Positions 12,615 through 42,987 of a stretch of DNA of 45,337 nt are shown piece by piece. This stretch comes from an uncultured Pelagibacteraceae bacterium. Its GTDB lineage: Bacteria > Pseudomonadota > Alphaproteobacteria > Pelagibacterales > Pelagibacteraceae. Location: positions 1 to 45,337 of the forward strand of contig CACDSN010000012.1 in NCBI GenBank assembly GCA_902555465.1. Direction: 5' to 3'. Position numbers and translations under genes: made by a program. Below the pieces are notes generated by a model. The model made no database searches. It saw nothing but the letters and a program-made list of their open reading frames with translations, and was not told the DNA's origin. Positions within the stretch are counted from its first letter, which is position 1. The number at the start of each line of letters is the position of its first letter.

Positions 12615-12630
12615 ATGTTATATTTAATTG
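12615..12630 (+). promoter_or_regulatory. Possible extended -10 promoter of the gcv leader
   Basis: TGTTATATT at 12616-12624 is an extended -10 element (TG, one base, then TATATT). Transcription starting about seven bases further on would begin at the first pairing strand of aptamer 1 (12630). I do not see a good -35 hexamer at the usual spacing, and in such A/T-rich DNA similar strings occur by chance. The support is mainly its fit to the start of the riboswitch. Confidence 0.35.
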
Positions 12631-12770
12631 CGGAAGAGACTACTTCGATGTAGAGCCGAAGGAGCAACCACCCCGGAATCTCTCAGGCAAAAGGACCGCG
12701 CATATTAACTCTGGAAAAAGAACCAAAGTTCTTGCCGAAGGAGCAAAACTCTCAGGCCAATAGACAGAGG
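12630..12770 (+). promoter_or_regulatory. Tandem glycine riboswitch
   Basis: Two glycine aptamers stand in a row before gcvT. Aptamer 1 spans about 12630-12699: GCGG (12630-12633) pairs with CCGC (12696-12699), and the interior holds GCCGAAGGAGCAA and TCTCAGGCAAAAGGAC, the conserved core. Aptamer 2 spans about 12709-12769: CTCTG (12709-12713) pairs with CAGAG (12765-12769), with GCCGAAGGAGCAA and CTCTCAGGCCAATAGACAG inside. The linker between them is only about nine bases. Glycine riboswitches upstream of gcvT are established and usually raise expression of the cleavage system when glycine is plentiful. Confidence 0.96.
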
Positions 12771-12789
12771 GGGCGAAAGAGTTAATATG
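12701..12789 (+). promoter_or_regulatory. 12-bp inverted repeat pairing inter-aptamer linker with the gcvT start codon
   Basis: CATATTAACTCT (12701-12712) is the exact reverse complement of AGAGTTAATATG (12778-12789), whose last three bases are the gcvT ATG. The helix would enclose the whole second aptamer and bury the start codon and the weak AGAG ribosome site. Its four innermost pairs use 12709-12712, which also form the base of aptamer 2, so the two pairings compete there. This looks like the expression platform of the riboswitch, acting on translation. The pairing is seen in the sequence; the regulatory direction is inference. Confidence 0.75.
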
Positions 12790-13890
12790 ATAAAAAAAAC
12801 ATCGTTATTTAATCTTCATAAAAAGCATAATGCTAAGCTTGTAGAGTTTGCAGGCTATGAAATGCCAATTCATTATAAAGATGGAATTATCCAAGAACAT
12901 AAATTTACGAGATCTAATTGTGGAATTTTTGATGTATCTCACATGGGACAACTATTTATATATGGCAAAGAAAATCTTACTCAAGATCTTGAAAATATTT
13001 TCCCAATAGACCTAGAAAAATTAAATCTAAATCAAAGCAAGTATTCTTTTTTAATGGATGAGAATGCGTGTATTCACGATGATTTAATAATAACTAAAAT
13101 TTTAGAAGGATATTTAATAATACTTAATGCTGCATGTAAAGAAGATGATTTAAGAATAATTAATAAAAAATTAAATAATAAATATGATTTACAATTAAAG
13201 GAGGATCTTTCATTAATTGCTCTACAAGGGCCAGAGGCAAAAAATATTTTAGAAAAAAAAGTAGAGGGAGTAAGTAAATTAAAGTTTATGAATGGAGGAA
13301 ATTTTAAATTTTCAGATATTAATATATTTATTACAAGATCAGGATATACAGGAGAAGATGGTTTTGAAATTTCTATTAAAAATAATTATGCAGAAAAATT
13401 TGTTGAGGAAATGCTTAGTAACGGATCTAAAATGATTGGATTAGGAGCTAGAGATACACTTAGAATGGAAGCAGGATTATGTCTTTATGGCAATGATATT
13501 GATAAGAACACAACTCCTATAGAAGCAAATCTCAAATGGGCGATTTCCAAAAATAGAATTGATACAGACTATCCTGGATCAAAAATTATTAAAAAACAAA
13601 TTCAATTAGGTGTAGAAAAAATTAGAGTAGGAATAAAGCCAGAGAATAGAGTAATAGCTAGAGGAGATACAAAAATTTTTAGCAATGATGATAAAGAAAT
13701 CGGAAAAATTACAAGTGGCACTTTTGGTCCAAGTGTTGATCATTCAATAGCAATGGGTTATGTTGATAGACAGTATTCAAATTTAAATACAAAATTATTT
13801 TTAGAGGTAAGAGGAAAAAAAATACCTGCAAATGTTTGTAATTTACCATTTTATAAAAAAAACTATGTCAAAGGAGAAATAAATGTCTGA
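12787..13890 (+). CDS. gcvT: Glycine cleavage system T protein (aminomethyltransferase)
   Basis: GcvT takes the aminomethyl group from lipoylated GcvH to tetrahydrofolate, releasing ammonia and CH2-THF. The 367-residue protein starts [27 protein letters not shown]-like text with the conserved FAGYEMP at about residues 20-26, then [54 protein letters not shown] (folate pocket region) and [12 protein letters not shown] near the end. Length is normal. The ATG is buried in the riboswitch helix. It overlaps gcvH by eight bases, and an AGGAG lies before the gcvH start inside gcvT. Confidence 0.97.
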
Positions 13891-14263
13891 TGTAAAATAT
13901 TCAAAAGAGCACGAATGGTTAAAGCTTGATGGAGATATAGCCACTATTGGGATTACAAAACATGCAACAGAAATGTTAGGAGATATTGTATTTACTGAAT
14001 TACCAGAAAAAGGTACAAGTGTAGAAAAAGATGGTACAGCAGGTGTTGTAGAATCAACTAAAGCAGCGAGCGATGTATATACTCCAGTGAGTGGCGAAGT
14101 GATTGATACAAATCAAGCCATAGTAGATGACCCATCTAAAATTAATCAAGACCCAGAAAACTCAGCATGGTTTTTTAAACTTAAAATAAAAGATCCTTCA
14201 GAAATAGAAACACTAATGAATAAAGACGATTATGATAAATTTGCAAAGGAGACATCAGCATAA
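13883..14263 (+). CDS. gcvH: Glycine cleavage system H protein
   Basis: GcvH is the lipoylated shuttle between the P, T and L proteins. The 126-residue product has [21 protein letters not shown] at the start, [13 protein letters not shown], and the lipoylation motif [10 protein letters not shown] with Lys60 as the modified residue, followed by [10 protein letters not shown] and NSAWFFKLK. The AAAGGAGAAATAAATG start context is one of the better ribosome binding sites in the window. Its TAA overlaps the gcvP ATG by one base (TAATG). The L protein gene is not in the window, as expected since lipoamide dehydrogenase is shared with other complexes. Confidence 0.97.
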
Positions 14264-21678: not shown

Positions 21679-22782
21679 ATGGATGATGTTGTAGTTATAG
21701 GAGGAGGAATTATTGGTGCTTCTGCTGCTTATTTTCTTTCAAAAGAAGGTCGAAAAGTAAAAGTTATTGAGAGAGATCCGACGTATAAAAATGCATCTTT
21801 TCCTCTATCTTTGGGCGGTTTCAGAAGACAATTTTTTCAAAAAGAAAATATTCTATTAGGAAAATTTGCTAAAGAATTCATATTTAATATATCAGAGACT
21901 TTAAAAACAGAAAAAAATCCAAATCCAACAGCAAGCATGGTTGCAAATGGATATTTATTAATGTTTGGTCCAGAACATGCTGATGAACAATATAAAGCAC
22001 TTGAAAACCATAAAGCATGTGATGCAGGTACAAAAAATATTAAAGGAACCGAACTCTCAAAATATTTTCCATACGTAAATTCTGATGGAATTGAAACTGC
22101 AACTTTTACAGACAATAAAACTGAGGGTTGGATTGATCCTTTTATGTTTCATGCAGCTTTAAAGAGTAAGGCAATTGAATTAGGGGCAGAATTTATTAAG
22201 GGTGAAGTCAAAAGTTTAAATGAAATTAATGCAAAAACAATTGTCTCAGCAGCTGGTTGTTGGACAAAAGAATTGTTAGACGATATTCCGGTAGTTCCCC
22301 AAAAACATACAGTTTTTAGAGTAAAGTGTCCTAAACATATTCCAGAGATGCCATTAACTGGAGATTTAACTACAGGAGTTTATTGGAGACCAGAGGGAAA
22401 AGAATATTTAGCAGGATCACCTATTTCAGTATTTGATGCAAATGATTTAGAACCTGCGTGGAATGATTTTGAAGAACTTGTATGGCCAGCATTAGCTAAG
22501 AGAATACCTGCCTTTGAAGAACTGAAATTAACTGGAGGTTGGGCTGGATATTACGATTGTAATAAACTCGATAATAATGCAGTTGTAGGAAAGCATCCAA
22601 AATATGAAAATGTTTATATGGCTACAGGGTTTACAGGCAGAGGATTGATGCAAGCCCCAGGAATAGGGAGAGCTTTAACGGAGCTGATAACAACCGGTTC
22701 ATATCAAACTATAGATATAAGTGCTTTTTCTGTTGAGAGAGTTTTAAACAGTGAAGTTAGACACGAACCCTACGTATTATAA
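21679..22782 (+). CDS. FAD-dependent oxidoreductase, DAO family
   Basis: The 367-residue protein has the FAD-binding start VVVIGGGIIGASAAYFLSKEGRKVKVIE and a DAO (D-amino acid oxidase / sarcosine oxidase) fold with SLGGFRRQFF, a TIVSAAGCWTKELL flavin-contact strand, and the end signature GGWAGYYDCNKLDNNAVVGKHPKYENVYMATGFTGRGLMQAPGIG (about residues 285-335). The family oxidises secondary or tertiary amines such as sarcosine, dimethylglycine or amino acids. With BHMT and the glycine cleavage system nearby, a methylated glycine is a good candidate substrate, but the sequence does not fix it. Its TAA abuts the stop of the small minus-strand ORF at 22777. Confidence 0.85.
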   Translation: MDDVVVIGGGIIGASAAYFLSKEGRKVKVIERDPTYKNASFPLSLGGFRRQFFQKENILLGKFAKEFIFNISETLKTEKNPNPTASMVANGYLLMFGPEHADEQYKALENHKACDAGTKNIKGTELSKYFPYVNSDGIETATFTDNKTEGWIDPFMFHAALKSKAIELGAEFIKGEVKSLNEINAKTIVSAAGCWTKELLDDIPVVPQKHTVFRVKCPKHIPEMPLTGDLTTGVYWRPEGKEYLAGSPISVFDANDLEPAWNDFEELVWPALAKRIPAFEELKLTGGWAGYYDCNKLDNNAVVGKHPKYENVYMATGFTGRGLMQAPGIGRALTELITTGSYQTIDISAFSVERVLNSEVRHEPYVL

Positions 22783-22960: not shown

Positions 22961-25729
22961 TTATCTTACTTCTGCTTCTTTTTCTTTTGGAGTTATTTCA
23001 GTTTTAAATTTGTTTGATATTTTTTGAACATTAACAGCAGATACTTTATATTCTGCACATTTAGTTTCTTCATCTTTACCATCACCTGTAACCATATTAA
23101 CCATATGTTCTGGGAAATGAAATGTTGTGAAAACAATTCCTTCTTTTACTTTATCAGTAACTTCAACTTTTAATGATACCTCACCTCTACCAGAATATAG
23201 CCTTGCAATATCCCCACTATTTAACTCCCTACTTTTAGCATCACTTGGGTGTAATAATAAAATATCTTCGTCAACTATTTTTAAGTTTTTTGTTCTCCTA
23301 GTCATTGTTGCAGCATTATAATGTTGCAAAACTCTACTTGTTGTTAAAATTAGAGGATATTCTTTTTTATTATTTTTTAACTCAGTGGATTCTTGCCAGT
23401 TGAAAGATTTTAGTCTTCCTTTTCCTAATTTAAATTCTTTTTCATGTAAAATTTTTGTATCTGTTCCGTCCTCTTTAACCGGCCATTGTAAACCTAATTT
23501 ACCGAGTCTTTCTCGAGTAATACCTTTAAAGAATGGAACAACATCAGCTACTTCAGCTAATACTTGGTCTGCGTCGTATGTGGGTTGATCATACCCTAGT
23601 TTTTGCATCATATCGGTTACAATAACCCCATCAGGTTTAGTTCCTGGTAAAGGCTCTGCTGCTTTATTCACTCTTTGAACTCTTCTTTCAGTATTAGTAA
23701 AAGTTCCATCTTTTTCTAAGAAAGTAGTCCCTGGCAATACTACATCAGCTAATTTCGCAGTTTCACTCATAAAAATTTCTTGTACTACTAATAAATCTAG
23801 AGACTCCATTGCTTTTACAACATGAGCACTATTAGGGTCAGTTTGAACAATATCTTCACCAATTATCCATAACCCTTTAACCTCCTTATTTATAGCTGCA
23901 TCAAAGATTTCAGGAATTTTTAATCCTGCTTTAGTTGGATGTACTACTCCATATTTTTCTGTATAAAATTCTTGAATTTTTTTATCTGCTACTGGAAAAT
24001 AACCAGCACCCTGATGTGGTTGACACCCCATGTCTGCAGCACCTTGAACATTATTTTGTCCTCTTAGTGGATTAACTCCAACACCCCTTCTACCAATGTT
24101 TCCTGTTATCATAGCAAGGTCTGCAATAAGCATTACTGTTTTTGAACCCTGTTCATGTTCTGTAACCCCTAATCCATGAAATTCCATTGAATTATTTGCT
24201 GTTGCATATGCAATTGCAGCTTCTTTAACTAATTGTTTCTCAACACCCGCTACATTTGCTAGATGATCAATATCTAAACTATTTATATGATTTAAAAATT
24301 CTTCGAACCCTTCTGTTCTCTTTTCAACAAAATCTTTATTTAATAAATTTCCTTTTACTATGAAGTATAGCATCATATTAAGTACAGCTACATTTGAACC
24401 AGGTTTTAATTTAATATGATAGTCAGCTAGTCTTGCAAGCTCAGTTGTTACTGGATCTAATACAATCAATTTTTTACCCTTCATAACTTGTTGTTTAATT
24501 TTTGCTCCAGTCACTGGATGAGCATTGGTTGGATTTGCACCAATTACGATAAATAAATCTGCATGATAAATATCTTCTGTGGAATTTGTTGCTGCTCCTG
24601 TACCAAAAGTTTGCTGCATGCCCCATGCAGTTGGTGAGTGACAAATTCTTGCACAACAGTCTATATTATTCGTTCCAACTACAGCTCTTATCATCTTTTG
24701 GAACACATAATTTTCCTCATTTGTACATCTAGCGGAAGAAATTCCTGCAATTGCATCAGGACCGTCTTCTTTTTTAATTTTTTCTAATTTATTTTTAATA
24801 TACTCATAAGCTTCATCCCAGGAAGCTTTTTCAAATTTCCCACTTCTTTTAATAAGTGGACTTCTTAATCTATCAGGATGGTCATAAAAACCAAAGGCAT
24901 ATCTACCTTTAATGCATGTATGTCCTGCATTAACTTCTGTTTCTTTTGGTGTATCAATTGCAACAACTTTTCCATCTTTAATTGACGCCTCTAGATTACA
25001 TCCCACTCCGCAATAAGAACAAGTTGTTCTAACTTTTTTATCTACTTTTGCAGATTTTGATTGAAATACATCAGATATAGCATCTGTTGGGCACGTATGT
25101 GCGCATGCTCCACAAGATACGCATGACGAATCTCCAAACATCATATCATTATCCGTGGTTATCCTTGACTCAAATCCTCTTCCACTCATTGTTAAAACAA
25201 ATGAACCTTGTATTTCATCACAAGCTCTTACGCATCTACCACAGTTTATACAGTTATCTAAATTCATTCTCATGTATGCATGAGAGGTATCTTTTGGAAT
25301 TCCTTTGTGTTGTTTTGGATTATTGTATCTATGTTCTTTAATACCTAGATCATTTGCTACAGTTTGTAGCTCACAGTTTTGATCAACTTCACATGTGCTA
25401 CAATTCATTGGATGGTCAGAAATTACAAGTTCTACAATGTTTTTTCTTAAACCTTCCAATGTTTCATTATTTGTAAACACATGCTGATTTTCACCTATTG
25501 GTGTATGACAAGAAGCAACAACTTTTGTGGGACCATCTTTTTCTAAAGCAACCTCTACCGAACAAACTCTACATGCACCGTAAGGCGCTAAATTCGGATC
25601 ATCACATAGTGTAGGTACTTTTTTCTCTCCAAGGTAACTTTTTACAAATTTTAAAATAGAAGTATGGTTTGGACCTATTTCATAAGGTTTTCCATCTATA
25701 TATGCAATTTTTCTTTTTTCAGAGCTCAT
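22961..25729 (-). CDS. fdsA: NAD-dependent formate dehydrogenase, molybdenum catalytic (alpha) subunit
   Basis: The 922-residue protein oxidises formate to CO2. Domains in order: a [2Fe-2S] ferredoxin domain (Cys42, 53, 56, 74); a NuoG-like His-Cys3 cluster (HPMNCSTCEVDQNC, about 106-119); two [4Fe-4S] sets (CINCGRCVRAC at 160-170, CVSCGACAHTC at 203-213); a [4Fe-4S] in the molybdopterin domain (CSYCGVGC, 237-244); and the bis-MGD domain. The Mo ligand is Cys363 followed by His364 (ARICHSPTAWG), so this is a cysteine, not selenocysteine, enzyme. The C-terminal molybdopterin-binding domain is complete. It overlaps the beta subunit gene by one base. Length is normal for the FdsA class. Confidence 0.96.
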   Translation of the reverse strand: MSSEKRKIAYIDGKPYEIGPNHTSILKFVKSYLGEKKVPTLCDDPNLAPYGACRVCSVEVALEKDGPTKVVASCHTPIGENQHVFTNNETLEGLRKNIVELVISDHPMNCSTCEVDQNCELQTVANDLGIKEHRYNNPKQHKGIPKDTSHAYMRMNLDNCINCGRCVRACDEIQGSFVLTMSGRGFESRITTDNDMMFGDSSCVSCGACAHTCPTDAISDVFQSKSAKVDKKVRTTCSYCGVGCNLEASIKDGKVVAIDTPKETEVNAGHTCIKGRYAFGFYDHPDRLRSPLIKRSGKFEKASWDEAYEYIKNKLEKIKKEDGPDAIAGISSARCTNEENYVFQKMIRAVVGTNNIDCCARICHSPTAWGMQQTFGTGAATNSTEDIYHADLFIVIGANPTNAHPVTGAKIKQQVMKGKKLIVLDPVTTELARLADYHIKLKPGSNVAVLNMMLYFIVKGNLLNKDFVEKRTEGFEEFLNHINSLDIDHLANVAGVEKQLVKEAAIAYATANNSMEFHGLGVTEHEQGSKTVMLIADLAMITGNIGRRGVGVNPLRGQNNVQGAADMGCQPHQGAGYFPVADKKIQEFYTEKYGVVHPTKAGLKIPEIFDAAINKEVKGLWIIGEDIVQTDPNSAHVVKAMESLDLLVVQEIFMSETAKLADVVLPGTTFLEKDGTFTNTERRVQRVNKAAEPLPGTKPDGVIVTDMMQKLGYDQPTYDADQVLAEVADVVPFFKGITRERLGKLGLQWPVKEDGTDTKILHEKEFKLGKGRLKSFNWQESTELKNNKKEYPLILTTSRVLQHYNAATMTRRTKNLKIVDEDILLLHPSDAKSRELNSGDIARLYSGRGEVSLKVEVTDKVKEGIVFTTFHFPEHMVNMVTGDGKDEETKCAEYKVSAVNVQKISNKFKTEITPKEKEAEVR

Positions 25730-27387
25730 TAATTGTCTTTAAGTATATCATTTTTCATTTCATCACCAAAATATTTTAAGATGTTCATTATAGGCGTTGG
25801 TATAGCTCCACAAAGTGCGCATAAACAACCTTTTTTCATAGTGATTAACAGTTCATTTAGTAATTTTAATGGAATTTTTGATGTTCCTTTTTTTAATTGA
25901 TCGAACATTTCCTTTCCTCTGTAAGATCCGAGTCTACCTGGGAAACATTTGCCACATGATTCTTCAGCTGAAAATTCAAATAAATGATGAATATATTCAG
26001 CCATGCTAAAATTTTTCGGTATACTAACAACACTAGCATGTCCTAACATAAAGCCTGCAGCTGTAAATTCTTGAAAATCTAAATTTAATTTTTCAATTTC
26101 TTTTACTGGAACAACTCCTCCTAAAGGTCCACCAATTTGAAATGCTTTTACTTCTTCTTTTAATCCTCCACCAAATTCTTCAAATATTTTTTTCATTGGA
26201 GTTCCCATATCTATTTCATATACACCTGGTTTATTAAAAAAACTATCTAGACATACAAGTTTAGTTCCTGCAGATTTTTTGTTTCCTATTGATGAAAATT
26301 TTTCAGCACCATTTAATAATATTCCAGTAGCTGCTGCTAAAGTTTCTACATTATTTACTACTGTTGGTTTTTTATATAACCCTTCTGTTACAGGAAACGG
26401 TGGTCTAACATCTACTTCAGCTCTTCTTCCTTCTATTGAAGCTATTAATGCAGTCTCTTCACCACATATATAAGCTCCCTGGCCTATACATATATTTAAA
26501 TCAAAAGAAAAATTAGTGCCTAAAATTTTATCACCTAATAATCCTGCTTGTTTTAATGCATTAATACTTCCATTAATTGCTTCAATTGATTTTGGATATT
26601 CGCCTCTGATGTAAAGTACTCCCTCATCACTTCCAATTACATAACCACAGATAATCATCCCAAATAAAACTTTTAAAGGTTGATCTTCTAATAAATATCT
26701 GTCGGAAAAGGCTCCTGAGTCACCTTCATCTGCATTACACACTACGTATTTTTTTTCAGACTTTGCTTTGCTACAGAAATCCCATTTCATTCCAGTTGGA
26801 AATCCAGCGCCACCTCTTCCAGTTAAATTTGATGATAATAGCGAGCTTACAATTTCCTTTTTATCAGTTTTGATGAATTTATTTAAACTATCTTTAAATT
26901 GATCAAGATTTGATAATTTATCATCCATCAGAAAACTTGTTGTTGCAAAACTCTTAGAAAAATATTTTTCTTGTTTTATATTTTTTCCACTAATAATTTT
27001 ATCTATTTGATTAATATCTTTTCCGGCATAATTCTCCCCATCATAATGAAATGCATGATTTTCATAACAATGACCTAAGCAAAACATCTCTCCAACTTTG
27101 TCTTTACCAAGTTTTTCTTGTAATTTTTCCTTTAAAGATTCTTGTGTGCCAGCACACATACATGCACTACCATTACAAACAAATGCTTTTTTTTCCCTAT
27201 GAGATGGTCTTAAAAATTCATAAAAACTTTCAGCCCCATGTATTGTGGAAACGCCCATTTTATATTCATTAGCAATTTCCTTCATACCACTGTCATTTTT
27301 CGATTTAAGTGATCTTTCTGATATTTTTTGGAAAAGGTTATTCTTTAGACCAATTCTCCCAGATAGATTGCTTATATTTTTTGACAT
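25729..27387 (-). CDS. fdsB: Formate dehydrogenase beta/gamma fusion (NuoE-NuoF-like)
   Basis: The 552-residue protein fuses two diaphorase modules. The first ~150 residues resemble NuoE/FdsG, with a thioredoxin-like [2Fe-2S] site formed by Cys71, Cys76, Cys103 and Cys107 (CNGSAC, FCLGHC). The rest is NuoF/FdsB: GRGGAGFPTGMKW (FMN/NADH site), CNADEGDSGAFSDRYLLE, GAYICGEETALIASIEG, and the [4Fe-4S] set ESCGKCFPGR followed by a later Cys in KKGCLCALCG. It passes electrons from FdsA to NAD+. In better-known fds operons G and B are separate genes. The gene lies between fdhD and fdsA, eight bases after fdhD. Confidence 0.93.
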   Translation of the reverse strand: MSKNISNLSGRIGLKNNLFQKISERSLKSKNDSGMKEIANEYKMGVSTIHGAESFYEFLRPSHREKKAFVCNGSACMCAGTQESLKEKLQEKLGKDKVGEMFCLGHCYENHAFHYDGENYAGKDINQIDKIISGKNIKQEKYFSKSFATTSFLMDDKLSNLDQFKDSLNKFIKTDKKEIVSSLLSSNLTGRGGAGFPTGMKWDFCSKAKSEKKYVVCNADEGDSGAFSDRYLLEDQPLKVLFGMIICGYVIGSDEGVLYIRGEYPKSIEAINGSINALKQAGLLGDKILGTNFSFDLNICIGQGAYICGEETALIASIEGRRAEVDVRPPFPVTEGLYKKPTVVNNVETLAAATGILLNGAEKFSSIGNKKSAGTKLVCLDSFFNKPGVYEIDMGTPMKKIFEEFGGGLKEEVKAFQIGGPLGGVVPVKEIEKLNLDFQEFTAAGFMLGHASVVSIPKNFSMAEYIHHLFEFSAEESCGKCFPGRLGSYRGKEMFDQLKKGTSKIPLKLLNELLITMKKGCLCALCGAIPTPIMNILKYFGDEMKNDILKDN

Positions 27388-27395
27388 ATTTTAAT

Positions 27396-28238
27396 TTAGC
27401 TACTTAATATAATTCTTTTCTCATTACTATAAATATTAAAGCTACTCTCTTTTACAAAACCTAACAGAGTCATGTCAAAACGTTTAGCAAGATCAATGGC
27501 GAGACTCGTGGGCGCACCCACACCAGCCATAACCCCAATATTGCCCATTAAACCTTTCTGAACTAATTCAAAATTCAACCTTCCAGAGCAAGCAATGAAT
27601 TGTTTCTCTGGATTAAGTATTTTTTTAGAAATCGAATGACCAATAAGCTTGTCCAATGCGTTGTGTCGACCAATATCCTCCTTGATTGCAATGACATTTC
27701 CATTCACATCAATTAAGGCACTAGCGTGTATGCCTCCTGTTTTTGAAAATTCGGATTGTTTATTCATCAATAATTTAGGCGACTGTAATATAATTTTTTC
27801 ATTAATTAGTGGGAATGTTAAATCTAGTTTATTTTCTTTAACTACCTGTATGGCATCTAGTGAAGTTTTTCCACATACCCCACATGAAGAGTTTGTGACA
27901 AAATTTCTTTTCAATTTTCCTATTTCTATATTATCGATATTGCCAATTGTTGCTTCAATTACATTTTGCAAATCATAGTCACCAGAAACTTCCCCTTTAT
28001 GTTCTATAGACTCAATATCATTAATATTTTTAATTATTCGCTCATTAAATAAAAAACCTTTAATTAAATCTTCATCATTACCAGGCGTCCTCATTGTAAT
28101 TGAAATATTTTCTACTTCCCATTTATTATTTTTTTTATATTTAAGTCGCATCTCTAAAGGCTCTTCAACAGAAACAGAATCTTTTATCTCTTCTAATTTT
28201 GAATTTTTCAATTTTGAGACGTTATATTTAATATCCAT
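27396..28238 (-). CDS. fdhD: Formate dehydrogenase accessory sulfurtransferase FdhD
   Basis: FdhD carries sulfur from a cysteine desulfurase to the molybdenum cofactor, which is required for formate dehydrogenase activity. The 280-residue protein has the essential CxxC (Cys119-Gly-Val-Cys122 in NSSCGVCGK), TMRTPGNDEDLIKGFLFNE, SKTGGIHASALID, KEDIGRHNALDKLIG and GVGAPTSLAIDLAKRFDMTLLGF near the end. Length is normal. It sits upstream of fdsB in the same transcript, one base downstream of the HPP gene. Its presence supports the molybdenum assignment of the dehydrogenase. Confidence 0.95.
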   Translation of the reverse strand: MDIKYNVSKLKNSKLEEIKDSVSVEEPLEMRLKYKKNNKWEVENISITMRTPGNDEDLIKGFLFNERIIKNINDIESIEHKGEVSGDYDLQNVIEATIGNIDNIEIGKLKRNFVTNSSCGVCGKTSLDAIQVVKENKLDLTFPLINEKIILQSPKLLMNKQSEFSKTGGIHASALIDVNGNVIAIKEDIGRHNALDKLIGHSISKKILNPEKQFIACSGRLNFELVQKGLMGNIGVMAGVGAPTSLAIDLAKRFDMTLLGFVKESSFNIYSNEKRIILSS

Positions 28239-28239
28239 T

Positions 28240-28704
28240 TTATTTAGGGTATTTTTTTTTTAATACAAATCTATTTAATACTACGCCAAATACTAAAACA
28301 ATAATTGAACCAAGTATTATTGGACTAATTAAATATTCAAAAGATACACCGCCAATAATAACAATAATAGGATTTCCACCTGCAGGTGGGTGAGTAACAT
28401 TTAATAAAATCATAAAACAAACTCCCAAACCTGTAGCTAAAGGAATTATAATATATATAGGCAGAGGAACAAATTTTAAAACTATTATACCTATAAAGGC
28501 GGTTAAAAAATGTCCAAAGAAAATATTTTTAGGTTGAGCAAACGGACTTTCTGGATATCCATATAGTAAAACCATAGATGATCCAAATGATGCAATTAAA
28601 AATAAGCCAAATGGTGTTTTGTAAGTAAGATATGTTAAAGCACCAATAGTAATAGTCGAGAAAAGGCCTGCTAAAATTGATTTCAATAAATGATCTTTTT
28701 CCAT
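28240..28704 (-). CDS. HPP-family integral membrane protein
   Basis: The 154-residue protein has four membrane helices and the family signature THPPAGGNPIIV (His105-Pro-Pro), with LLYGYPESPFAQPKNIFFGHFL (about 47-68) as the other conserved segment. Some HPP proteins have been reported to transport nitrite in cyanobacteria and chloroplasts. Here the gene lies between a scaffold gene and fdhD with gaps of one base on each side, so it is part of the formate dehydrogenase operon. Formate and nitrite are similar small anions, and a formate carrier role is my inference. Confidence 0.85.
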   Translation of the reverse strand: MEKDHLLKSILAGLFSTITIGALTYLTYKTPFGLFLIASFGSSMVLLYGYPESPFAQPKNIFFGHFLTAFIGIIVLKFVPLPIYIIIPLATGLGVCFMILLNVTHPPAGGNPIIVIIGGVSFEYLISPIILGSIIVLVFGVVLNRFVLKKKYPK

Positions 28705-28705
28705 T

Positions 28706-29104
28706 TTATAATTTTAAAGCTTTTGTAACAGTTTTGAAAGGTAATAGAATACATTCTTTTCTTGAAATATTTTTCTTATCAAAAAGTTTTTCAAAAGGTT
28801 TCCATTCTTTATTAAATTTTAAATTAGTGTTTTTAAAAAAAATATTTACAAATTCTATTAGTTCATTAACTTTAATCAAAGATTTATTTATTGATAATTT
28901 AGATAATAAACTAGCAGACGCTTGGCAGTAAATACAAGATTTGCATTGATAACCCATATCTAAGATTTTTTGATCTTTGACTATTAGGCTTATTTCAATT
29001 TCATCGCCACACATTTTACTTTTATATTTTGATTTATGCGTAAAATTTTTAATATCTTTATTGTTTTTTGTATCTGCTGCTATTTGTAAAATTTCAAGAT
29101 TCAT
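28706..29104 (-). CDS. SufU/IscU-like iron-sulfur scaffold protein
   Basis: The 132-residue protein carries the three cysteine positions and the aspartate of the IscU/SufU fold: Cys32 in MCGDEIEI (with Asp34), Cys60 in CQASASLLS, and Cys118 in RKECILLPFKTV. Two extra cysteines precede the second (Cys54 and Cys57 in CKSCIYC), which ordinary IscU lacks. It is the first gene of the formate dehydrogenase operon, whose enzyme needs at least seven Fe-S clusters by motif count. A dedicated assembly role is inference. The ATG at 29104 faces mobA across 45 bases. Confidence 0.8.
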   Translation of the reverse strand: MNLEILQIAADTKNNKDIKNFTHKSKYKSKMCGDEIEISLIVKDQKILDMGYQCKSCIYCQASASLLSKLSINKSLIKVNELIEFVNIFFKNTNLKFNKEWKPFEKLFDKKNISRKECILLPFKTVTKALKL

Positions 29105-29149
29105 TTATAAAACTTTAATTAAAAAATTATTTGATTTATATTTCTTTTA

Positions 29150-29758
29150 ATGAAAGAGCACAATATTTTAGGTGTTATTTTAGCAGGCGGCAAATCGTCA
29201 AGATTTGGAAGCAATAAGTCTTTATCCAACTTGTCAAACTCAAAATTAATTGAACATGTTATAAATAAAATAAATAAATATTTTTCAGAAATTTTAATTA
29301 TATCAAATGATAGTAAATTAATATTAGACGATACAAATATTAAAATTATTAAAGATTGTAAAGAGGGATATCTAGGACCTTTAGTTGGAGTTTTGTCAGC
29401 AATGAAATATGCTAATCAAAATAAAAAATATAATTGGATAATAACTTTCCCATGTGACACCCCTTTCTTCGATGAAATAATAATTGAGAAGATGATACAA
29501 AAAACATCTTCAAAAAAAGAAAAAATATTTTTAATTAAAGAAAAAAAACAAAGACATAATATTTTTGGTACTTGGTCAACAAGTCTAGAAAAAGTTTTAG
29601 AGCAAGATTTAAACAATAATTTTAGAAAAGTTGATTTATGGGCAGATAAAATTGGCTGTAGCTATATAGAAAAAGATATAAAAAAAGAAAATGAATTTTT
29701 AAATATTAATACAAAAGAAGATTTAGAATTAGCTGAGAAAATGTATAATAAAAAATGA
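29150..29758 (+). CDS. mobA: Molybdenum cofactor guanylyltransferase
   Basis: MobA attaches GMP to molybdopterin, forming the guanine dinucleotide cofactor used by formate dehydrogenase. The 202-residue protein starts with the nucleotide loop VILAGGKSSRFGSNKSL, and has ISNDSKL, IKDCKEGYLGPLVGVLSAM and TFPCDTPFFDE, with the metal-binding aspartate in the last. It is divergent from the fds operon and overlaps moeA by four bases (ATGA), so the last two cofactor steps are encoded next to the enzyme that needs them. Confidence 0.94.
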   Translation: MKEHNILGVILAGGKSSRFGSNKSLSNLSNSKLIEHVINKINKYFSEILIISNDSKLILDDTNIKIIKDCKEGYLGPLVGVLSAMKYANQNKKYNWIITFPCDTPFFDEIIIEKMIQKTSSKKEKIFLIKEKKQRHNIFGTWSTSLEKVLEQDLNNNFRKVDLWADKIGCSYIEKDIKKENEFLNINTKEDLELAEKMYNKK

Positions 29759-30996
29759 TTTCATATAAAACGGCTATAAATAAATTAAAAAAATTTCATC
29801 TTTCAACAAAGTCTGAAACAATACTTTCTAGAGATTCGTTATATCGTATTTGCTCTGAAAACATTTATAGTAAATCTAATTACCCAAATTCAGATAATAC
29901 TGCATTAGATGGTTTTGCAATAAATTCATTTGAAACTAAATATGCAAGTAACGCAAACAAAATTAAATTAAAAATATTAAAAACAGTTGCTGCTGGCGAT
30001 AATCCAAAAATTAAAAAAATTACCAAAAGAACATGTATTGAGGTTATGACTGGTGCAGTTATAAAGAAACCTTTTAACACAATAATTCCTTATGAAAAAT
30101 CAAAAGTAATTAGAATTAAAAATTCCAATTATTTAGTTGTAAATAAAAAAATTAATAAATTTAATAATTTTAGATTTGCTGGTAGTGATTACAAAAGAGG
30201 TCAAGTAGTTATTAAAAAAGGTCATATAATAAAACCATCAGATATTTTAATTTTAAAAACTCTTGGTATTAAGAATATTAAAGTAAAGAAAAAATTAAAT
30301 ATTATAATTTTTGCCACTGGAAATGAAATTTCAAATCAAGAAAAAATTACAAATTGGAAAGTTAGAAATTCAAACGGAAGTTATATAAAATCTTTTTCAA
30401 AAATTTTACCATTAAAAATAATTGAAAAATCAATTTTAAGAGATAATGATGAAAAAAAGTTTTTGAATGAAGTTTATAAAAATATTAAAAGCAAAACAGA
30501 TATAATTATTACTATTGGTGCAGTTTCCGCAGGAAAATATGATTATGTTCCACGAATCATAAATAAATTTAAGGGCAAGGGTTTTTTTAAAGGTGTAAAA
30601 ATTAGACCTGGAAAACCAATATTATTCTCAAAATTAAAATCAAATACAGCTTTTTTTGGACTACCAGGAAATCCAGTTTCAACTGCGGCTTGCTTTAGAT
30701 TTTTTGTTTTGCCTTACGTATTTAGATCAATTGGATATTTAGGCAATTCTCCAATTAAAGCAAAATTAAAAAATAAATTTGAAAAGAAAAAAGAATTTAC
30801 AAGGTTCGCTAAAGGAAAAATTACAGTTTCAAATAGGGGAAATTTGGAGTTTGAAGTCTTAAAAGGTCAAGAATCTTTTAGATTAAAACCGTTATCCAAA
30901 TCCAACGCTTGGGGACAATTTAATAGTGGTCAAGTTAGGTTTAAAAAAGGAGCTTTAATAGATTGCTATACAACTTTTGGTATTAATTTCTTATAA
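29755..30996 (+). CDS. moeA: Molybdopterin molybdenumtransferase
   Basis: MoeA inserts molybdate into adenylated molybdopterin. The 413-residue protein has SNYPNSDNTALDGFAI (the conserved DGxA region), VAAGDNPK, IEVMTGAVI, RFAGSDYKRGQVV, ATGNEIS, the MPT-binding TIGAVSAGKYDYV, and KIRPGKPILFSKL followed by FFGLPGNPVS. The GAVSAGK motif replaces the more usual GGVSxG, a minor change. It is very lysine- and asparagine-rich, following base composition. The downstream DMT gene starts after 51 bases. Confidence 0.94.
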   Translation: MISYKTAINKLKKFHLSTKSETILSRDSLYRICSENIYSKSNYPNSDNTALDGFAINSFETKYASNANKIKLKILKTVAAGDNPKIKKITKRTCIEVMTGAVIKKPFNTIIPYEKSKVIRIKNSNYLVVNKKINKFNNFRFAGSDYKRGQVVIKKGHIIKPSDILILKTLGIKNIKVKKKLNIIIFATGNEISNQEKITNWKVRNSNGSYIKSFSKILPLKIIEKSILRDNDEKKFLNEVYKNIKSKTDIIITIGAVSAGKYDYVPRIINKFKGKGFFKGVKIRPGKPILFSKLKSNTAFFGLPGNPVSTAACFRFFVLPYVFRSIGYLGNSPIKAKLKNKFEKKKEFTRFAKGKITVSNRGNLEFEVLKGQESFRLKPLSKSNAWGQFNSGQVRFKKGALIDCYTTFGINFL

Positions 30997-31047: not shown

Positions 31048-31953
31048 ATGCTTGATATAAAAGATGCAAAAGTTGCTATTCCTGTAGTTTTAATTGCCGG
31101 TCTTTTCTGGTCTTTTGGTCCGTACGTTGTTAGACATATTGATGAAGCCCAACAAGTTCCTTGGCAATATTTATTTACAAGAGGAATTGTAATTTTTTTA
31201 ATTTTGAATTTATTTTTGTACCTAGAAGAGGGTAAAGATTTTTTTTATAACTATAAAAAAGTTGGTATTTCAGGTTTAATAGGTGGTGTTGGACTTGGAA
31301 TTGCAATGATTTCATTTATTTATTCCATTACAAATACATCAGCCGCTGTAACTTTACTTTGTCTTGCTGCCATGCCTTTTATTACTGCATTACTTGGCTT
31401 TATGTTTCTAAAAGAAGAAATATCAATAAATGTATGGGTTGCGATATCGATTGCTGCAGTTGGAATATTAATAATGGCCATTGATAATACTGGTCAGAAC
31501 ACCGTAGTCGGTTTAATTTTTGGACTTCTTTCTTCTATTGGATTTGCAGTTTTTTCAACAACTTTAAGATGGAAAAAAGAAACGCCAAAATTTACAACAG
31601 TAGCTATAGCTGGTTTATTTTGTTGTTTTTTTTCAGGAGCAATGATTATCTTTAACGACTTAAATTTTTTATCAACTGGTAAAAATCATGCTTTATTTGC
31701 AACACATGGAACCTTAGTTTGCCTAGGTTTAATTTTATACTCAATTGGATCAAAACATATACCTGCTGCTGAACTAACTCTTTTGTCTTTAACAGAAGTA
31801 ATAGGTGGTATTTTTTGGGTATGGGTTCCTCTATTAGGTATTAATGAAATTCCTTCACAAAGTACAATTATTGGTGGATTTTTTATATTTCTTTCAATTA
31901 TTTATTATAGTTTAATAATTAGAACCAATAGAAGATTTATTGGACTAAATTAA
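31048..31953 (+). CDS. DMT (EamA) transporter next to creatinase
   Basis: This 301-residue protein has about ten membrane helices in two EamA-type halves, recognised by VLIAGLFWSFGPYVVRH, the TNTSAAVTLLCLAAMPFITALLGFMFLKEEIS segment at the end of the first half, and AAELTLLSLTEVIGGIFWVWV in the second. It probably moves a small metabolite across the cytoplasmic membrane. The creatinase gene starts six bases after its stop and the amidinotransferase follows directly, so arginine, creatine, guanidinoacetate or ornithine are natural substrate candidates; this is inference from position. Confidence 0.84.
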   Translation: MLDIKDAKVAIPVVLIAGLFWSFGPYVVRHIDEAQQVPWQYLFTRGIVIFLILNLFLYLEEGKDFFYNYKKVGISGLIGGVGLGIAMISFIYSITNTSAAVTLLCLAAMPFITALLGFMFLKEEISINVWVAISIAAVGILIMAIDNTGQNTVVGLIFGLLSSIGFAVFSTTLRWKKETPKFTTVAIAGLFCCFFSGAMIIFNDLNFLSTGKNHALFATHGTLVCLGLILYSIGSKHIPAAELTLLSLTEVIGGIFWVWVPLLGINEIPSQSTIIGGFFIFLSIIYYSLIIRTNRRFIGLN

Positions 31954-31959
31954 ATTTTT

Positions 31960-33177
31960 ATGGAAAGACCAGATTTTTTAGAATTAAAAAATGGTGAAAA
32001 GGTAAAGCTACCATTCACAGAAAAAGAATATCAAAATAGATTAAAAAAACTTAGAAATACAATGTCTGAACAAGGTATGGACATGGCAATCTTAACATCA
32101 ATGCATAATGTAGCATATTACACTGGTTTTATTTATTGTTCATTTGGTAGATCTTATGGATGCTTAGTTACACAAAAAAAAATTGTAACAATTTCCGCAA
32201 ATATCGACGCAAGTCAACCTTGGAGGCGATCACATTGTGATAATGTGATTTATACTGATTGGAAAAGAGATAATTTTTTAAGAGCAATTGTATCAATTAT
32301 AGGTAGAGATGACCCTCCAAAAACTATAGGTATTGAAAATGATCATGTAACTTTAGATATAAAAGAAAAATTAAATTCTATTTTTTATAATTCAGTTTTT
32401 AAAAATATTGCGGATCATCTTATGAAATTAAGAATGATTAAATCTGATGAAGAAATAGAAATTATTAAAAATGGAGCAAGAATTGCAGATTTAGGGGCAG
32501 AGGAAATTATAAAACATATAAAACCAGGACAAACAGAAATTGAAATAGCTATTGCTGGAAGAGATAGAATGGAAAGAGAGATTGCAAATTCATATCCAAA
32601 TGCAGAATACATGGATACATGGGTATGGTTTCAATCAGGAATTAATACAGATGGCGCACATAATCCTAAAACAAATAGAGCCTTGAAAAAAGGAGATATA
32701 TTGTCATTAAATACTTTTCCGATGATATCAGGTTACTATACTGCTTTGGAAAGAACATTATTTGTTGATGAAGTAGATGATGACTCCCTTAAAGCTTGGG
32801 AGGCGAACGTAAAAGTCCACAAGAGAGGTTTAGAATTAATAAAACCTGGTATTAAATGCTCAGAAATTTGTGAGGAATTAAACGATTTATTTGCTCAACT
32901 TGGATACCTTCAATACAGAACTTTTGGTTATGGTCACTCATTTGGAATGCTATCTCATTTTTATGGAAGAGAAGCGGGTTTGGAGCTCCGAGAAGATATT
33001 GATACTGTGCTTGAGAAAAACATGGTTATATCAATGGAACCAATGATAATGATACCAGAAGGTAAACCAGGAGCAGGAGGATATAGAGAGCATGATATTT
33101 TAATAATTACTGAAAAAAGTGCAGAAAATATTAGTAAATTTCCTTTTGGACCTGAAAACAATATCATTAAAAATTAA
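31960..33177 (+). CDS. Creatinase (creatine amidinohydrolase) or guanidinoacetate-hydrolysing homologue
   Basis: Creatinase splits creatine to sarcosine and urea. The 405-residue pita-bread protein aligns from memory along its whole length with Pseudomonas creatinase (about 403 residues), for example YCSFGRSYG, SANIDASQPWRR, WFQSGINTDGAHNP and SMEPMIM. Active-site residues known from that enzyme are all kept: Phe62, Arg64, His234, Glu264, His326, Arg337, Glu360 and His378. The two aspartates that bind metal in M24 aminopeptidases are Asn251 and Ala262 here, as in creatinase, so it should not be a peptidase. It follows the DMT gene by six bases and abuts the amidinotransferase start. Guanidinoacetate is an alternative substrate given that neighbour. 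Confidence 0.88.
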   Translation: MERPDFLELKNGEKVKLPFTEKEYQNRLKKLRNTMSEQGMDMAILTSMHNVAYYTGFIYCSFGRSYGCLVTQKKIVTISANIDASQPWRRSHCDNVIYTDWKRDNFLRAIVSIIGRDDPPKTIGIENDHVTLDIKEKLNSIFYNSVFKNIADHLMKLRMIKSDEEIEIIKNGARIADLGAEEIIKHIKPGQTEIEIAIAGRDRMEREIANSYPNAEYMDTWVWFQSGINTDGAHNPKTNRALKKGDILSLNTFPMISGYYTALERTLFVDEVDDDSLKAWEANVKVHKRGLELIKPGIKCSEICEELNDLFAQLGYLQYRTFGYGHSFGMLSHFYGREAGLELREDIDTVLEKNMVISMEPMIMIPEGKPGAGGYREHDILIITEKSAENISKFPFGPENNIIKN

Positions 33178-34290
33178 ATGACTGAAAAAATAAAAGTAAA
33201 TAGTTGGAATGAGTGGGATCCTTTAAAACATGTAATTGTTGGAAGAGCGGATGGAACATGTATTCCCGCACCAGAACCAGCATTAGATGCAAAAGTCCCA
33301 GAAGACTCTGATATGAGAGGTCATTATGGTCCAAGAACTAAAGATACTGTTGATAAAGCAAATGAACTTTTAGATAATTTTTCATCCATGTTAGAAAAAC
33401 GTGGAATAAGAGTTGATCGACCAACACCAATTGATTTTAACCAACCAACCTCAACCCCGGATTGGAAAGCAGAAACAATGTTTGGCTGCATGCCTCCAAG
33501 AGATGTTCTTTTGACGGTAGGAAATGAAATTTTAGAAGCTACAATGAGTTATAGATGTAGATGGTTTGAATACCTTTGTTATCGGCCTTTATTAAAAAAA
33601 TATTACAATGAAGACCCTAACATGAGGCATGAATCTGCTCCAAAACCAAGACTAACTGATGCTGATTACAGAAAAGATTATCTGTCAGACAAAATTGGAG
33701 TTCAAAAAAGATTAGAATGGACAGAAAAAAAGTTTTTTGTAACAACAGAAGAAGAACCATTGTTTGATGCAGCTGACATTCTAAGATTTGGAAAAGATTT
33801 GGTTGTACAACATGGATTTACTACAAATTTAAAAGGTATTGATTGGATAAAAAGACACTACAAAGATCATAGAGTTCATGCTGTTAATTTTCCAGGAGAC
33901 CCTTATCCTATTCATATTGATGCAACTTTTACTCCAATTAAAGAAGGTTTAATCATAAACAATCCTCAAAGAAGGTTACCAAAAGAACAAAGAAAGTTAT
34001 TTGAAGATAATGGATGGAAGATAATAGACTCAGCTCAGCCAGCTCATAATTCTCCTCCACCTCTATGTTATTCATCTGTTTGGTTATCAATGAATGTTTT
34101 GGTTTTAGATCCTAAGACAGTATGTGTCGAAAAAAGTGAAGTTTATCAAGCTGAGCAATTGGATAAATTAGGAATGGAAGTTGTTTCTGTAGAACTTAGA
34201 GATGCTTACGCATTCGGAGGAGGACTTCATTGTTGTACAGCAGATGTATATAGAGAAGGTGGTTTAAAAGATTATTTTCTAAAACAATAA
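33178..34290 (+). CDS. Glycine amidinotransferase (L-arginine:glycine amidinotransferase-like)
   Basis: AGAT moves the amidino group of arginine to glycine, giving guanidinoacetate and ornithine; the reaction is reversible. The 370-residue protein resembles the vertebrate enzyme throughout: SWNEWDPLKHVIVGRA, DVLLTVGNEILEATMSYRCR, FDAADILRFGKD, YPIHIDATF, SSVWLSMNVLVLD and AFGGGLHCCTADV. The catalytic triad is present as Asp197, His246 and Cys352, and the serine pair (Ser299-Ser300) near the substrate is kept. Family relatives act on other amino acceptors, so glycine is probable, not proven. The start directly follows the creatinase stop; the end abuts a convergent small gene. Confidence 0.88.
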   Translation: MTEKIKVNSWNEWDPLKHVIVGRADGTCIPAPEPALDAKVPEDSDMRGHYGPRTKDTVDKANELLDNFSSMLEKRGIRVDRPTPIDFNQPTSTPDWKAETMFGCMPPRDVLLTVGNEILEATMSYRCRWFEYLCYRPLLKKYYNEDPNMRHESAPKPRLTDADYRKDYLSDKIGVQKRLEWTEKKFFVTTEEEPLFDAADILRFGKDLVVQHGFTTNLKGIDWIKRHYKDHRVHAVNFPGDPYPIHIDATFTPIKEGLIINNPQRRLPKEQRKLFEDNGWKIIDSAQPAHNSPPPLCYSSVWLSMNVLVLDPKTVCVEKSEVYQAEQLDKLGMEVVSVELRDAYAFGGGLHCCTADVYREGGLKDYFLKQ

Positions 34291-41780: not shown

Positions 41781-41794
41781 ACCAAAATAAAAAG

Positions 41795-41850
41795 AAACCG
41801 GGTTATTTGAGCCATATTGTGCACCCTGCATAATGCTAAAGCACTAAAAA
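41795..41850 (+). promoter_or_regulatory. SAM-V riboswitch aptamer
   Basis: A second SAM aptamer follows the terminator. GGGT (41800-41803) can pair with ACCC (41823-41826), and GTGC (41819-41822) with GCAC (41841-41844); the core TTATTTGA and GCTAAAGCAC match the SAM-V class, which shares its ligand core with SAM-II and is known from marine bacteria including Pelagibacter, where a tandem SAM-II/SAM-V arrangement has been reported. The aptamer runs straight into AAAAAGGAG, so SAM binding should block ribosome access there and control translation. Confidence 0.82.
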
Positions 41851-41864
41851 GGAGAAGGGGTTTC

Positions 41865-41936
41865 ATGCTTATTTGCCCTCATTTAATTTATGGGCTTCTT
41901 CTCCTAAATATTAAAGGAGAAGAATATGTCGAATGA
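41865..41936 (+). CDS. Candidate leader ORF (23 codons) between SAM-V and bhmt
   Basis: An ATG at 41865-41867 stands 10 bases after AGGAG (41850-41854), which is the ribosome site next to the SAM-V aptamer. The frame encodes 23 residues starting MLICPHLIYGLLLLN and ends with TGA at 41934-41936, past the bhmt start and in another frame. Its codons run through the hairpin that masks the bhmt ribosome site. It could act as a coupling leader peptide: ribosomes would open the hairpin. I cannot rule out that the ATG is unused. Confidence 0.5.
   Translation: MLICPHLIYGLLLLNIKGEEYVE
41896..41924 (+). promoter_or_regulatory. Hairpin sequestering the bhmt ribosome binding site
   Basis: TTCTTCTCCT (41896-41905) is the exact reverse complement of AGGAGAAGAA (41915-41924), with a nine-base A/T loop. 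The second strand contains the bhmt Shine-Dalgarno AGGAG, two bases before the ATG context. The same CTTCTCCT can instead pair with an upstream copy AGGAGAAG at 41850-41857, just after the SAM-V core. Two mutually exclusive pairings of one strand are the sign of a switch. The pairings are seen; the switching is inference. Confidence 0.72.
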
Positions 41937-42987
41937 AAGTTTAAAAGATAGATTAGATAAAGGTCCAGTAATATGTGCTGAAGGATTTTTATTTGAAATT
42001 GAGAGAAGGGGATACATGGCTTCAGGCGAATTTGTTCCTATGGTTTCTCTAGACCATCCAGAGGTTTTAGAAAATTTACACAAAGAATTTCAACATGCCG
42101 GCTCTGACATTGTGGAAGCTTTTACTTACAATGGTCATAGAGAAAAAATGAGAGTAATTGGAAAAGAAGAATTGCTCGAGCCTTTAAACAGAGCTGCTTT
42201 GAAAATAGCAAAGAAAGTTGCACTTAATACACCAAAAGGCATTAAGCCAAATTTAATGGCTGGTAACATTTCTAATTCAAATATCTGGAAAGATGGAGAC
42301 AAACAATCACAGCTTGAAGTAGAAAAAATGTTTGATGAAATGATAGGATGGGCAGTCGATGAAGGAGCCGATTTTTTAGTTGGCGAAACATTCTACTATG
42401 CAGAAGAGGCATTTAAAGCATTGGAAGTAATGAAAAGATCTGGTTTGCAAACTGTTCTTACTATTTCCCCAATGGGCGAAAATATTATGAGAGATGGAAA
42501 ATCAGTTATTGATACTTGCAAAGAATTAGAACAAAGAGGTGCAGATGTTGTTGGCATGAACTGTTTCAGAGGTCCTAACACAATGTTTCCATATTTAAAG
42601 GAAATTAGAAAAACCGTTAAATGTCATGTTGGAGCTCTCCCTATTCCGTATAGAACAACAAAAGAAAGTCCAACGTTCTTTAATCTACCAGACAATAACG
42701 GATGTAATTGTGATGCACCACATGGAAGAACTTTTCCTACAGCATTAGACCCAATGTTTTGCAATAGATATGAAATTGGAAAATTTGCAAAAGAAGCTTA
42801 CGAACTTGGTATTAATTATATAGGTGTTTGTTGTGGGGCAAATCCAATGCTAATAAGAGAAACAGCAGAAGCAGTTGGGCTAAAAGTTCCTGCAAGCAAA
42901 TATAGAGAGAATATGTCTAATCATTTTATGTACGGAACAAATAAAAGAATTCCAAAACATATGACTGACTATGGAGATAAAGCTTAG
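41926..42987 (+). CDS. bhmt: Betaine-homocysteine S-methyltransferase-like protein
   Basis: BHMT moves a methyl group from glycine betaine to homocysteine, making methionine and dimethylglycine. The 353-residue protein has the homocysteine methyltransferase barrel with the zinc cysteines: one in GMNCFRGP (about residue 206) and the pair in GVCCGANP (about 298-299), plus EAFTYNGHREKM and VGETFYYAEEA. Regulation by SAM through two stacked riboswitches agrees with a methionine role. The ATG at 41926 follows AGGAGAAGAAT. The TAG stop interlocks with the stop of the convergent HD gene (42984-42987). Confidence 0.92.
   Translation: MSNESLKDRLDKGPVICAEGFLFEIERRGYMASGEFVPMVSLDHPEVLENLHKEFQHAGSDIVEAFTYNGHREKMRVIGKEELLEPLNRAALKIAKKVALNTPKGIKPNLMAGNISNSNIWKDGDKQSQLEVEKMFDEMIGWAVDEGADFLVGETFYYAEEAFKALEVMKRSGLQTVLTISPMGENIMRDGKSVIDTCKELEQRGADVVGMNCFRGPNTMFPYLKEIRKTVKCHVGALPIPYRTTKESPTFFNLPDNNGCNCDAPHGRTFPTALDPMFCNRYEIGKFAKEAYELGINYIGVCCGANPMLIRETAEAVGLKVPASKYRENMSNHFMYGTNKRIPKHMTDYGDKA

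Follow-up and report, generated by a model that had tools for sequence, protein, structure and literature searches.

A putative guanidino-acid scavenging operon combining creatinase with an AGAT-type amidinotransferase in a SAR11-like marine bacterium

The subject of this report is a three-gene operon at positions 31048-34290 of a 45,337-nucleotide stretch of DNA (contig CACDSN010000012.1 of assembly GCA_902555465.1, the whole of which is called the window below) from an uncultured Pelagibacteraceae bacterium. It encodes an EamA-type transporter, a creatinase and an amidinotransferase of the glycine amidinotransferase (AGAT) type, and it is best read, with a probability of roughly 0.5, as a module by which a SAR11-like marine bacterium scavenges guanidino acids. 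Creatine and related compounds of this class would enter through the EamA-type protein, and creatinase would split creatine into sarcosine and urea. Neighbouring genes and published SAR11 annotation suggest that sarcosine would then be converted to glycine and one-carbon (C1) units ending in formate oxidation. AGAT would transfer the amidino group of a guanidino acid, most likely guanidinoacetate, to ornithine (both direction and acceptor being presumed), giving arginine and glycine and retaining nitrogen otherwise lost as urea. Within the genus, transporter and AGAT would form a stable core while creatinase comes and goes. In an earlier note on this DNA, salvage of guanidino compounds, with glycine and sarcosine as products, had been the second choice behind an arginine-to-urea cycle; it is now the preferred explanation, with the direction of AGAT still inferred.

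The operon and its enzymes

31048-31953, + strand: EamA/DMT-family transporter (ORF1), 301 amino acids, Pfam EamA E 1.7e-19
31960-33177, + strand: creatinase (creatine amidinohydrolase, M24 fold; ORF2), 405 amino acids, by homology to 1chm
33178-34290, + strand: AGAT-type amidinotransferase (ORF3), 370 amino acids, by homology to human AGAT

The operon claimed in the earlier note was confirmed as three co-directional open reading frames, with six bases between transporter and creatinase and none between creatinase and AGAT, which abut. Neither promoter excess nor a credible terminator was found. The genome (1.16 Mb in 39 contigs) is 91.7% complete; its size and its gene content, with a glycine and a SAM-V riboswitch among the features, suggest SAR11.

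ORF2 is a creatinase by homology. It matches the solved Pseudomonas creatinase (1chm, EC 3.5.3.3) with E 2e-156 and 227 of 399 aligned residues identical (57%), and two further creatine amidinohydrolases with E 1.2e-150 and 1.1e-143, far ahead of the best non-creatinase, a prolidase (E 2.7e-27). DddP (28.8 bits; cut-off 600) and ectoine hydrolase (78.7 bits; cut-off 613) were rejected as assignments. Eight positions that we take to be ligand or catalytic residues (F62, R64, H232, Y258, E262, R335, E358 and H376, 1chm numbers) are all kept in the window and are identical in every one of the 101 extracted rows, among which loci that overlap count twice. The proposal that the enzyme lacks aminopeptidase metal ligands was borne out in part: relative to prolidase 1pv9, and presuming our numbering of its ligands, three of five positions are replaced (N251, A262 and H378) but H326 and E360 are still present. 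Homology makes a strong case that the window creatinase would hydrolyse creatine to sarcosine and urea; data on the specificity of creatinase for guanidinoacetate were not found in open PMC text. The window gene differs from that of 1chm in being flanked by genes for an EamA transporter and an AGAT, and in lying in a genome that, like 60 relatives, has no creatininase-family gene (0/61, with positive search controls).

ORF3 is of the AGAT type, as had been proposed. It matches human AGAT (GATM, 1jdw) with E 7.7e-86 and 155 of 351 aligned residues identical (44%), and the Asp-His-Cys triad of the human enzyme (D254, H303 and C407) is kept as D197, H246 and C352. Over 195 extracted rows (overlaps included), D197 is present in 194 and H246 and C352 in all. 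Dimethylargininase or arginine deiminase was rejected as an assignment (22.6 bits against 300, with Pfam ADI barely above its cut-off). The idea that all active-site residues of both enzymes are kept thus holds for the checked creatinase residues and the AGAT triad but not for the AGAT 300-flap, where human N300 and M302 correspond to Y243 and I245 and the human-type flap is absent. The window enzyme also differs from human GATM in its bacterial operon with creatinase and in that guanidinoacetate methyltransferase (GAMT) was not found, in a search without positive control.

In the excerpts of the papers cited here and below, the amidinotransferase flap is described as influencing which substrates are used (PMC3684758, PMC4887976). 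CyrA/AoaA differ from human AGAT at both flap positions and still use arginine and glycine (PMC3684758), while AmtA, of the same family, accepts neither glycine nor guanidinoacetate (PMC4887976), so the acceptor of the window AGAT cannot be read from its sequence. ORF3 is filed as an AGAT-type amidinotransferase only; glycine as acceptor and arginine as donor, the substrates of EC 2.1.4.1, are candidates. The family reaction is called reversible, and AmtA forms arginine from homoarginine and ornithine (PMC4887976). CyrA/AoaA and AmtA act in biosynthetic clusters, whereas the window AGAT has catabolic neighbours.

AGAT genes also occur in other settings. A second paralogue in the window genome (L003, contig C29, 671-1780, - strand; 74% identical over 367 residues) is followed by another EamA-type gene, and in genomes G073 and G025 similar paralogues have 2OG-oxygenase and luciferase-like genes as neighbours. 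Tandem SMR-family transporter genes (L077:9965-10637), whose Qac/EmrE/SugE matches fall below cut-off, are close to the second AGAT of G073; guanidinium export by these is only a thought. The second paralogue of G004 has neighbours resembling BHMT, a sarcosine/dimethylglycine-dehydrogenase-type protein and a GbcA-like oxygenase, all below cut-offs. In G304 (L127:8283-16857), an AGAT that is 61% identical and has I/T at the flap is the first gene of a series similar to those for ectoine utilisation (EutA, B and C, an M20 amidohydrolase, an M24 protein and a trans-3-hydroxyproline-dehydratase-like gene), of which the cyclodeaminase is above one curated cut-off and the remaining genes mostly below theirs. 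Finally, at L074:6668-8949, the gene directly after AGAT encodes a DoeA-like M24 hydrolase, which scores 445 bits where the cut-off is 613.

Association of creatinase with AGAT

The gene association was examined in 150 genomes, comprising the window's own, 90 others of the genus, 53 of the order and six others of the class. Creatinase (E 1e-60 or better) is present in 28 and AGAT (E 1e-30 or better) in 116, and all 28 creatinase genomes contain AGAT (hypergeometric 3e-4, relatedness ignored). Creatinase adjoins AGAT in 27 of these, the sole exception being G093, in which the two lie on different contigs. The EamA transporter is found directly upstream of creatinase in 26 of the 26 genomes whose contig extends that far, the contig ending at this point in the 27th (L031). 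The co-occurrence check suggested in the earlier note therefore revealed an association beyond chance. The converse does not hold, since 88 of the 116 AGAT-bearing relatives have no detected creatinase. Among the 34 genomes that are at least 90% complete, creatinase is found in five and AGAT in 27, of which 22 have no detected creatinase. In all 20 creatinase-less genomes of the genus that were examined (a subset of such genomes), the EamA transporter is directly upstream of AGAT, which argues that the transporter-AGAT pair is a stable core of the genus and creatinase an optional addition. On an AGAT tree of the genus (as for creatinase, built by a quick method only), the presence of creatinase needs four changes, but well-supported branches force only one, so repeated gain or loss lacks tree support. 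In 24 of 36 genomes of the genus, the gene directly after AGAT is beta-eliminating-lyase/threonine-aldolase-like.

A class sample of 385 genomes contains AGAT in nine (E 1e-60) and creatinase in 45 (E 1e-100), and a phylum sample contains AGAT in 16 of 398. Four of the six AGAT genomes of the class sample that lie outside the genus (G431, G446, G509 and G524) also have creatinase, as a divergent neighbour of AGAT in G524. A scan of named genome contigs, from which the best 80 AGAT loci were kept (by their titles mostly Rhodobacteraceae, with some SAR116 and some unclassified Alphaproteobacteria; 70 have at least 2 kb of flank on both sides), revealed a creatinase 23-1215 bases from AGAT in ten, 52-62% identical to that of the window. 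The two genes are divergent in the SAR116 loci L157 and L158, and convergent in L184, titled only Alphaproteobacteria, and in seven loci that we place, in some cases by genus name, in the Rhodobacteraceae (L204, L212, L229, L231, L232, L233 and L236). On the creatinase tree, the L184 enzyme groups with that of G356 (L131) at 100%, apart from the other linked lineage (99%), so that the creatinases linked to AGAT belong to two lineages or more. Three orientations and two lineages are a sounder measure of the association than a count of loci, because these loci are related and do not represent independent events.

Four of the same 80 loci (L174, L184, L197 and L222) have a ureohydrolase of the agmatinase family at a distance of 96-292 bases from AGAT. 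Those of L174, L184 and L222, scored with NCBIfam models, are all above the agmatinase cut-off (two narrowly) and far below that for arginase. L184 brings together PhyH, ureohydrolase, AGAT, creatinase and transporter genes. In 67 of the 80 loci, neither creatinase nor ureohydrolase is present in the fetched flank. PhyH-family dioxygenase genes, which possibly oxidise a guanidino compound, are found near creatinase, AGAT or ureohydrolase clusters at L184:3802-4590, L131:14435-15256, L130:11206-12033 and L080:1337-2149, in the last two near the SAR11 operon.

Transporters

ORF1 scores 64 bits against TIGR00950 (carboxylate/amino acid/amine transporter; cut-off 230) and is proposed to be the guanidino-acid carrier, its substrate and direction being presumed. 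A different system, an ABC transporter of one subtype that uses an SBP_bac_8 binding protein, recurs at several loci with 49-81% identity to the L222 copy. It adjoins creatinase without AGAT in L131, L134 and L137 (three of the nine stand-alone creatinase regions L131-L139), AGAT without creatinase in L197 and L222, and both enzymes in L184, the distribution that would be predicted for genes handling a single class of imported substrates. The sharing of transporters between creatinase and AGAT makes a guanidino compound the probable import. In a sister family, a Lys/Arg/Orn-type ABC transporter is near AGAT in five of the five loci where this can be seen (223 bits against a cut-off of 256 in the single one scored).

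Partner enzymes and the fate of urea and arginine

The earlier note had seen no GAMT, the partner of AGAT in creatine biosynthesis, and 0 of 111 genomes of relatives match human GAMT, in a search lacking a positive control. An S-adenosylmethionine-dependent methyltransferase beside the second AGAT of G004 (L076:7304-7933) is a generic Methyltransf_11 protein.

The arginase superfamily (PF00491) is present in 90 of the 111 genomes, including AGAT-less ones such as G015, G017 and G018. AGAT is not always paired with a candidate urea-releasing hydrolase: creatinase and PF00491, the two families searched, both went undetected in at least 15 genomes with AGAT, and five of these (G004, G037, G095, G098 and G102) are at least 90%, though below 100%, complete. 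The earlier note had suggested looking for absence of arginase; no arginase-type ureohydrolase was found in the window genome, whose two PF00491 proteins both exceed the agmatinase cut-off and stay below half of that for arginase. The closest PDB entries to the first are a guanidinopropionase and a guanidinobutyrase. Its gene lies beside genes for an aldehyde dehydrogenase and an NCS1-type permease (L254:3773-7836, contig C7), a possible second guanidino-acid locus of this genome. The second is probably involved in polyamine synthesis, because its gene is beside one for 1,9-bis(guanidino)-5-aza-nonane synthase.

A full urease match is found in 18 of the 111 genomes and in two of 21 creatinase carriers, and not in the window genome. 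This tally is the analyst's judgement: 45 of 111 match at E <=0.001 and 40 exceed the cut-off, but only the 18 with E 4e-56 or better were counted, the matches set aside being at E 4e-8 or weaker and spanning about 40-50 positions. Argininosuccinate synthase is over its cut-off in 51 of the 61 genomes formed by the window genome and 60 relatives, indicating that an ornithine-to-arginine flow exists; ornithine cyclodeaminase has matches at E 0.001 or better in six of the 61, none over cut-off.

Weighing the explanations

Guanidino-acid scavenging is favoured because the flow from ornithine to arginine exists, while ornithine cyclodeaminase is nowhere over cut-off in 61 genomes and GAMT was not found in 111 (search lacking a positive control), and because an AGAT running towards arginine would keep the nitrogen that creatinase discards. 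Also counted for it are the identities of the two enzymes, their co-occurrence and adjacency, the transporters common to both, the rarity of a full urease among creatinase carriers (two of 21) and the arginine-forming reaction of AmtA (PMC4887976). Several points weigh against it and hold its probability at no more than an even chance, since the neighbours also fit glycine as acceptor and imported arginine. The direction of AGAT is presumed, as is its acceptor in view of the flap change, with AmtA as a relative that rejects both glycine and guanidinoacetate. The threonine-aldolase-like gene after AGAT could equally supply glycine as acceptor, and the glycine- and C1-related neighbours as a group (this gene, the formate dehydrogenases and the G004 set) also fit that use. 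The Lys/Arg/Orn-type transporter near sister-family AGATs fits imported arginine as donor, most named AGATs (67 of the best 80) stand apart from creatinase and ureohydrolase in the fetched flank, and EamA proteins are often exporters.

The arginine-to-urea cycle that headed the earlier note would have AGAT make a guanidino acid from arginine and creatinase or an agmatinase-family ureohydrolase release urea, the amine being returned, so that the net reaction is that of arginase. AGAT does adjoin a urea-releasing hydrolase in 13 of the best 80 named loci (creatinase in ten, ureohydrolase in four, both in L184), the window genome has no arginase-type ureohydrolase, and there is a formal precedent in the human GATM products cleaved by a human ureohydrolase, although that hydrolase cleaves neither guanidinoacetate nor creatine (PMC9772407). 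As the main role of AGAT it is nevertheless not favoured and must be considered unlikely: 88 of 116 AGAT-bearing relatives show no creatinase, at least 15 also show no arginase-superfamily gene, and ureohydrolases are frequent where AGAT is missing, too. A urea sink was moreover undetected in 19 of the 21 creatinase carriers searched, so the cycle would lose arginine nitrogen. It is possible in genomes holding both enzymes.

It is rather improbable that AGAT acts on creatine itself (creatine + ornithine giving arginine + sarcosine), which would make two routes off one substrate, creatinase losing nitrogen and AGAT keeping it, and dispense with GAMT. The same transporter is found with AGAT alone or with creatinase, sarcosine-oxidase-like and formate-dehydrogenase-like genes lie within about 6 kb of the pair even where creatinase is missing (L062, L064, L065, L067 and L068), and the flap residues are unlike those of human AGAT; however, animal AGAT is not known to use creatine or sarcosine, and most of the best 80 named loci have no creatine link. 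Just as improbable is a forward AGAT whose amidino product (guanidinoacetate or another) is exported by the EamA protein or kept as a solute, creatinase being a separate catabolic gene on the same transcript. The pairing of transporter and AGAT in all 20 creatinase-less genomes examined, the threonine-aldolase-like gene as a possible supply of glycine and the commonness of EamA exporters would all suit it, yet creatinase was not found without AGAT in the genus and lies beside it in other groups and other orientations. Least credible is a chance union of two unrelated catabolic genes in a variable chromosomal spot. The spot is indeed variable, formate-dehydrogenase type and flanks differing between genomes, but the adjacency recurs in three orientations and two creatinase lineages.

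Genomic surroundings

The features around the operon include several with a possible part in glycine and C1 metabolism:

12621-12708, + strand: glycine riboswitch (Rfam RF00504, 59.9 bits)
12787-17133, + strand: gcvT-gcvH-gcvP glycine cleavage genes (open reading frames, gcv names given by eye)
21679-22782, + strand: FAD oxidoreductase of glycine/sarcosine-oxidase type (TIGR02352 77 bits, TIGR01377 58 bits, both below cut-off)
22961-28238, - strand: NAD-dependent formate dehydrogenase-like subunits and an fdhD-like gene (named by eye)
29150-30996, + strand: mobA- and moeA-like molybdenum-cofactor genes (named by eye and clustering, without family search)
41791-41857: SAM-V riboswitch (72.8 bits), with a homocysteine-methyltransferase-like gene downstream of it at 41926-42987

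The formate dehydrogenase-like genes are a plausible sink for C1 units derived from sarcosine. The mobA/moeA-like genes end 51 bases upstream of the transporter on the same strand, possibly sharing one transcript with the operon, and are also present beside the creatinase-bearing copies L079, L080, L081 and L130; at the creatinase locus L129, a single-chain formate-dehydrogenase-like gene takes their place. Among close relatives, the formate dehydrogenase near the operon is either of a molybdenum type, encoded by several genes and accompanied by mobA/moeA, or of an NAD type consisting of a single chain (types named by eye, comparing 22961-30996 of the window with L062-L065, L067-L068 and L129).

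Relation to known systems

The enzymes are known, and so is the creatinase part in SAR11, where genes for a creatine-to-glycine route that include creatinase have been described together with formate dehydrogenase (Sun et al. 2011, cited in PMC3686209). The window shares with that route the creatinase and the sarcosine and formate oxidation genes and adds an amidinotransferase, a word with no occurrence in PMC3686209. For another marine clade, too, there is a proposal of creatine catabolism (PMC11366302). Humans provide a case of an amidinotransferase working together with a hydrolase that releases urea: GATM makes taurocyamine, guanidinobutyrate and guanidinopropionate, which are cleaved by a ureohydrolase of a different family from creatinase (PMC9772407). 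A search of open PMC text, outside which most subscription papers lie, found no paper linking a bacterial creatinase with an amidinotransferase and none on SAR11 and glycine amidinotransferase, so that the AGAT-creatinase-transporter module is apparently undescribed.

Implications

A tentative extension of the scavenging scheme would make the AGAT of SAR11 type a creatine (or guanidinoacetate):ornithine amidinotransferase, converting a foreign phosphagen straight to arginine and sarcosine or glycine, with creatinase as an optional urea overflow. If so, it would bypass three steps of arginine synthesis and represent a catabolic, nitrogen-saving use of an enzyme of synthesis, AGAT being otherwise familiar from the making of creatine and natural products. 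Animals and some plankton produce creatine and guanidinoacetate, and SAR11 bacteria are reported to need glycine. Should guanidino-acid scavenging be correct, it would give SAR11 a second source of glycine and AGAT a catabolic role, and would constitute an unrecognised nitrogen route in oligotrophic water through very abundant marine bacteria. That AGAT and creatinase are linked in several marine groups points to a common way of scavenging guanidino compounds of animal and plankton origin.

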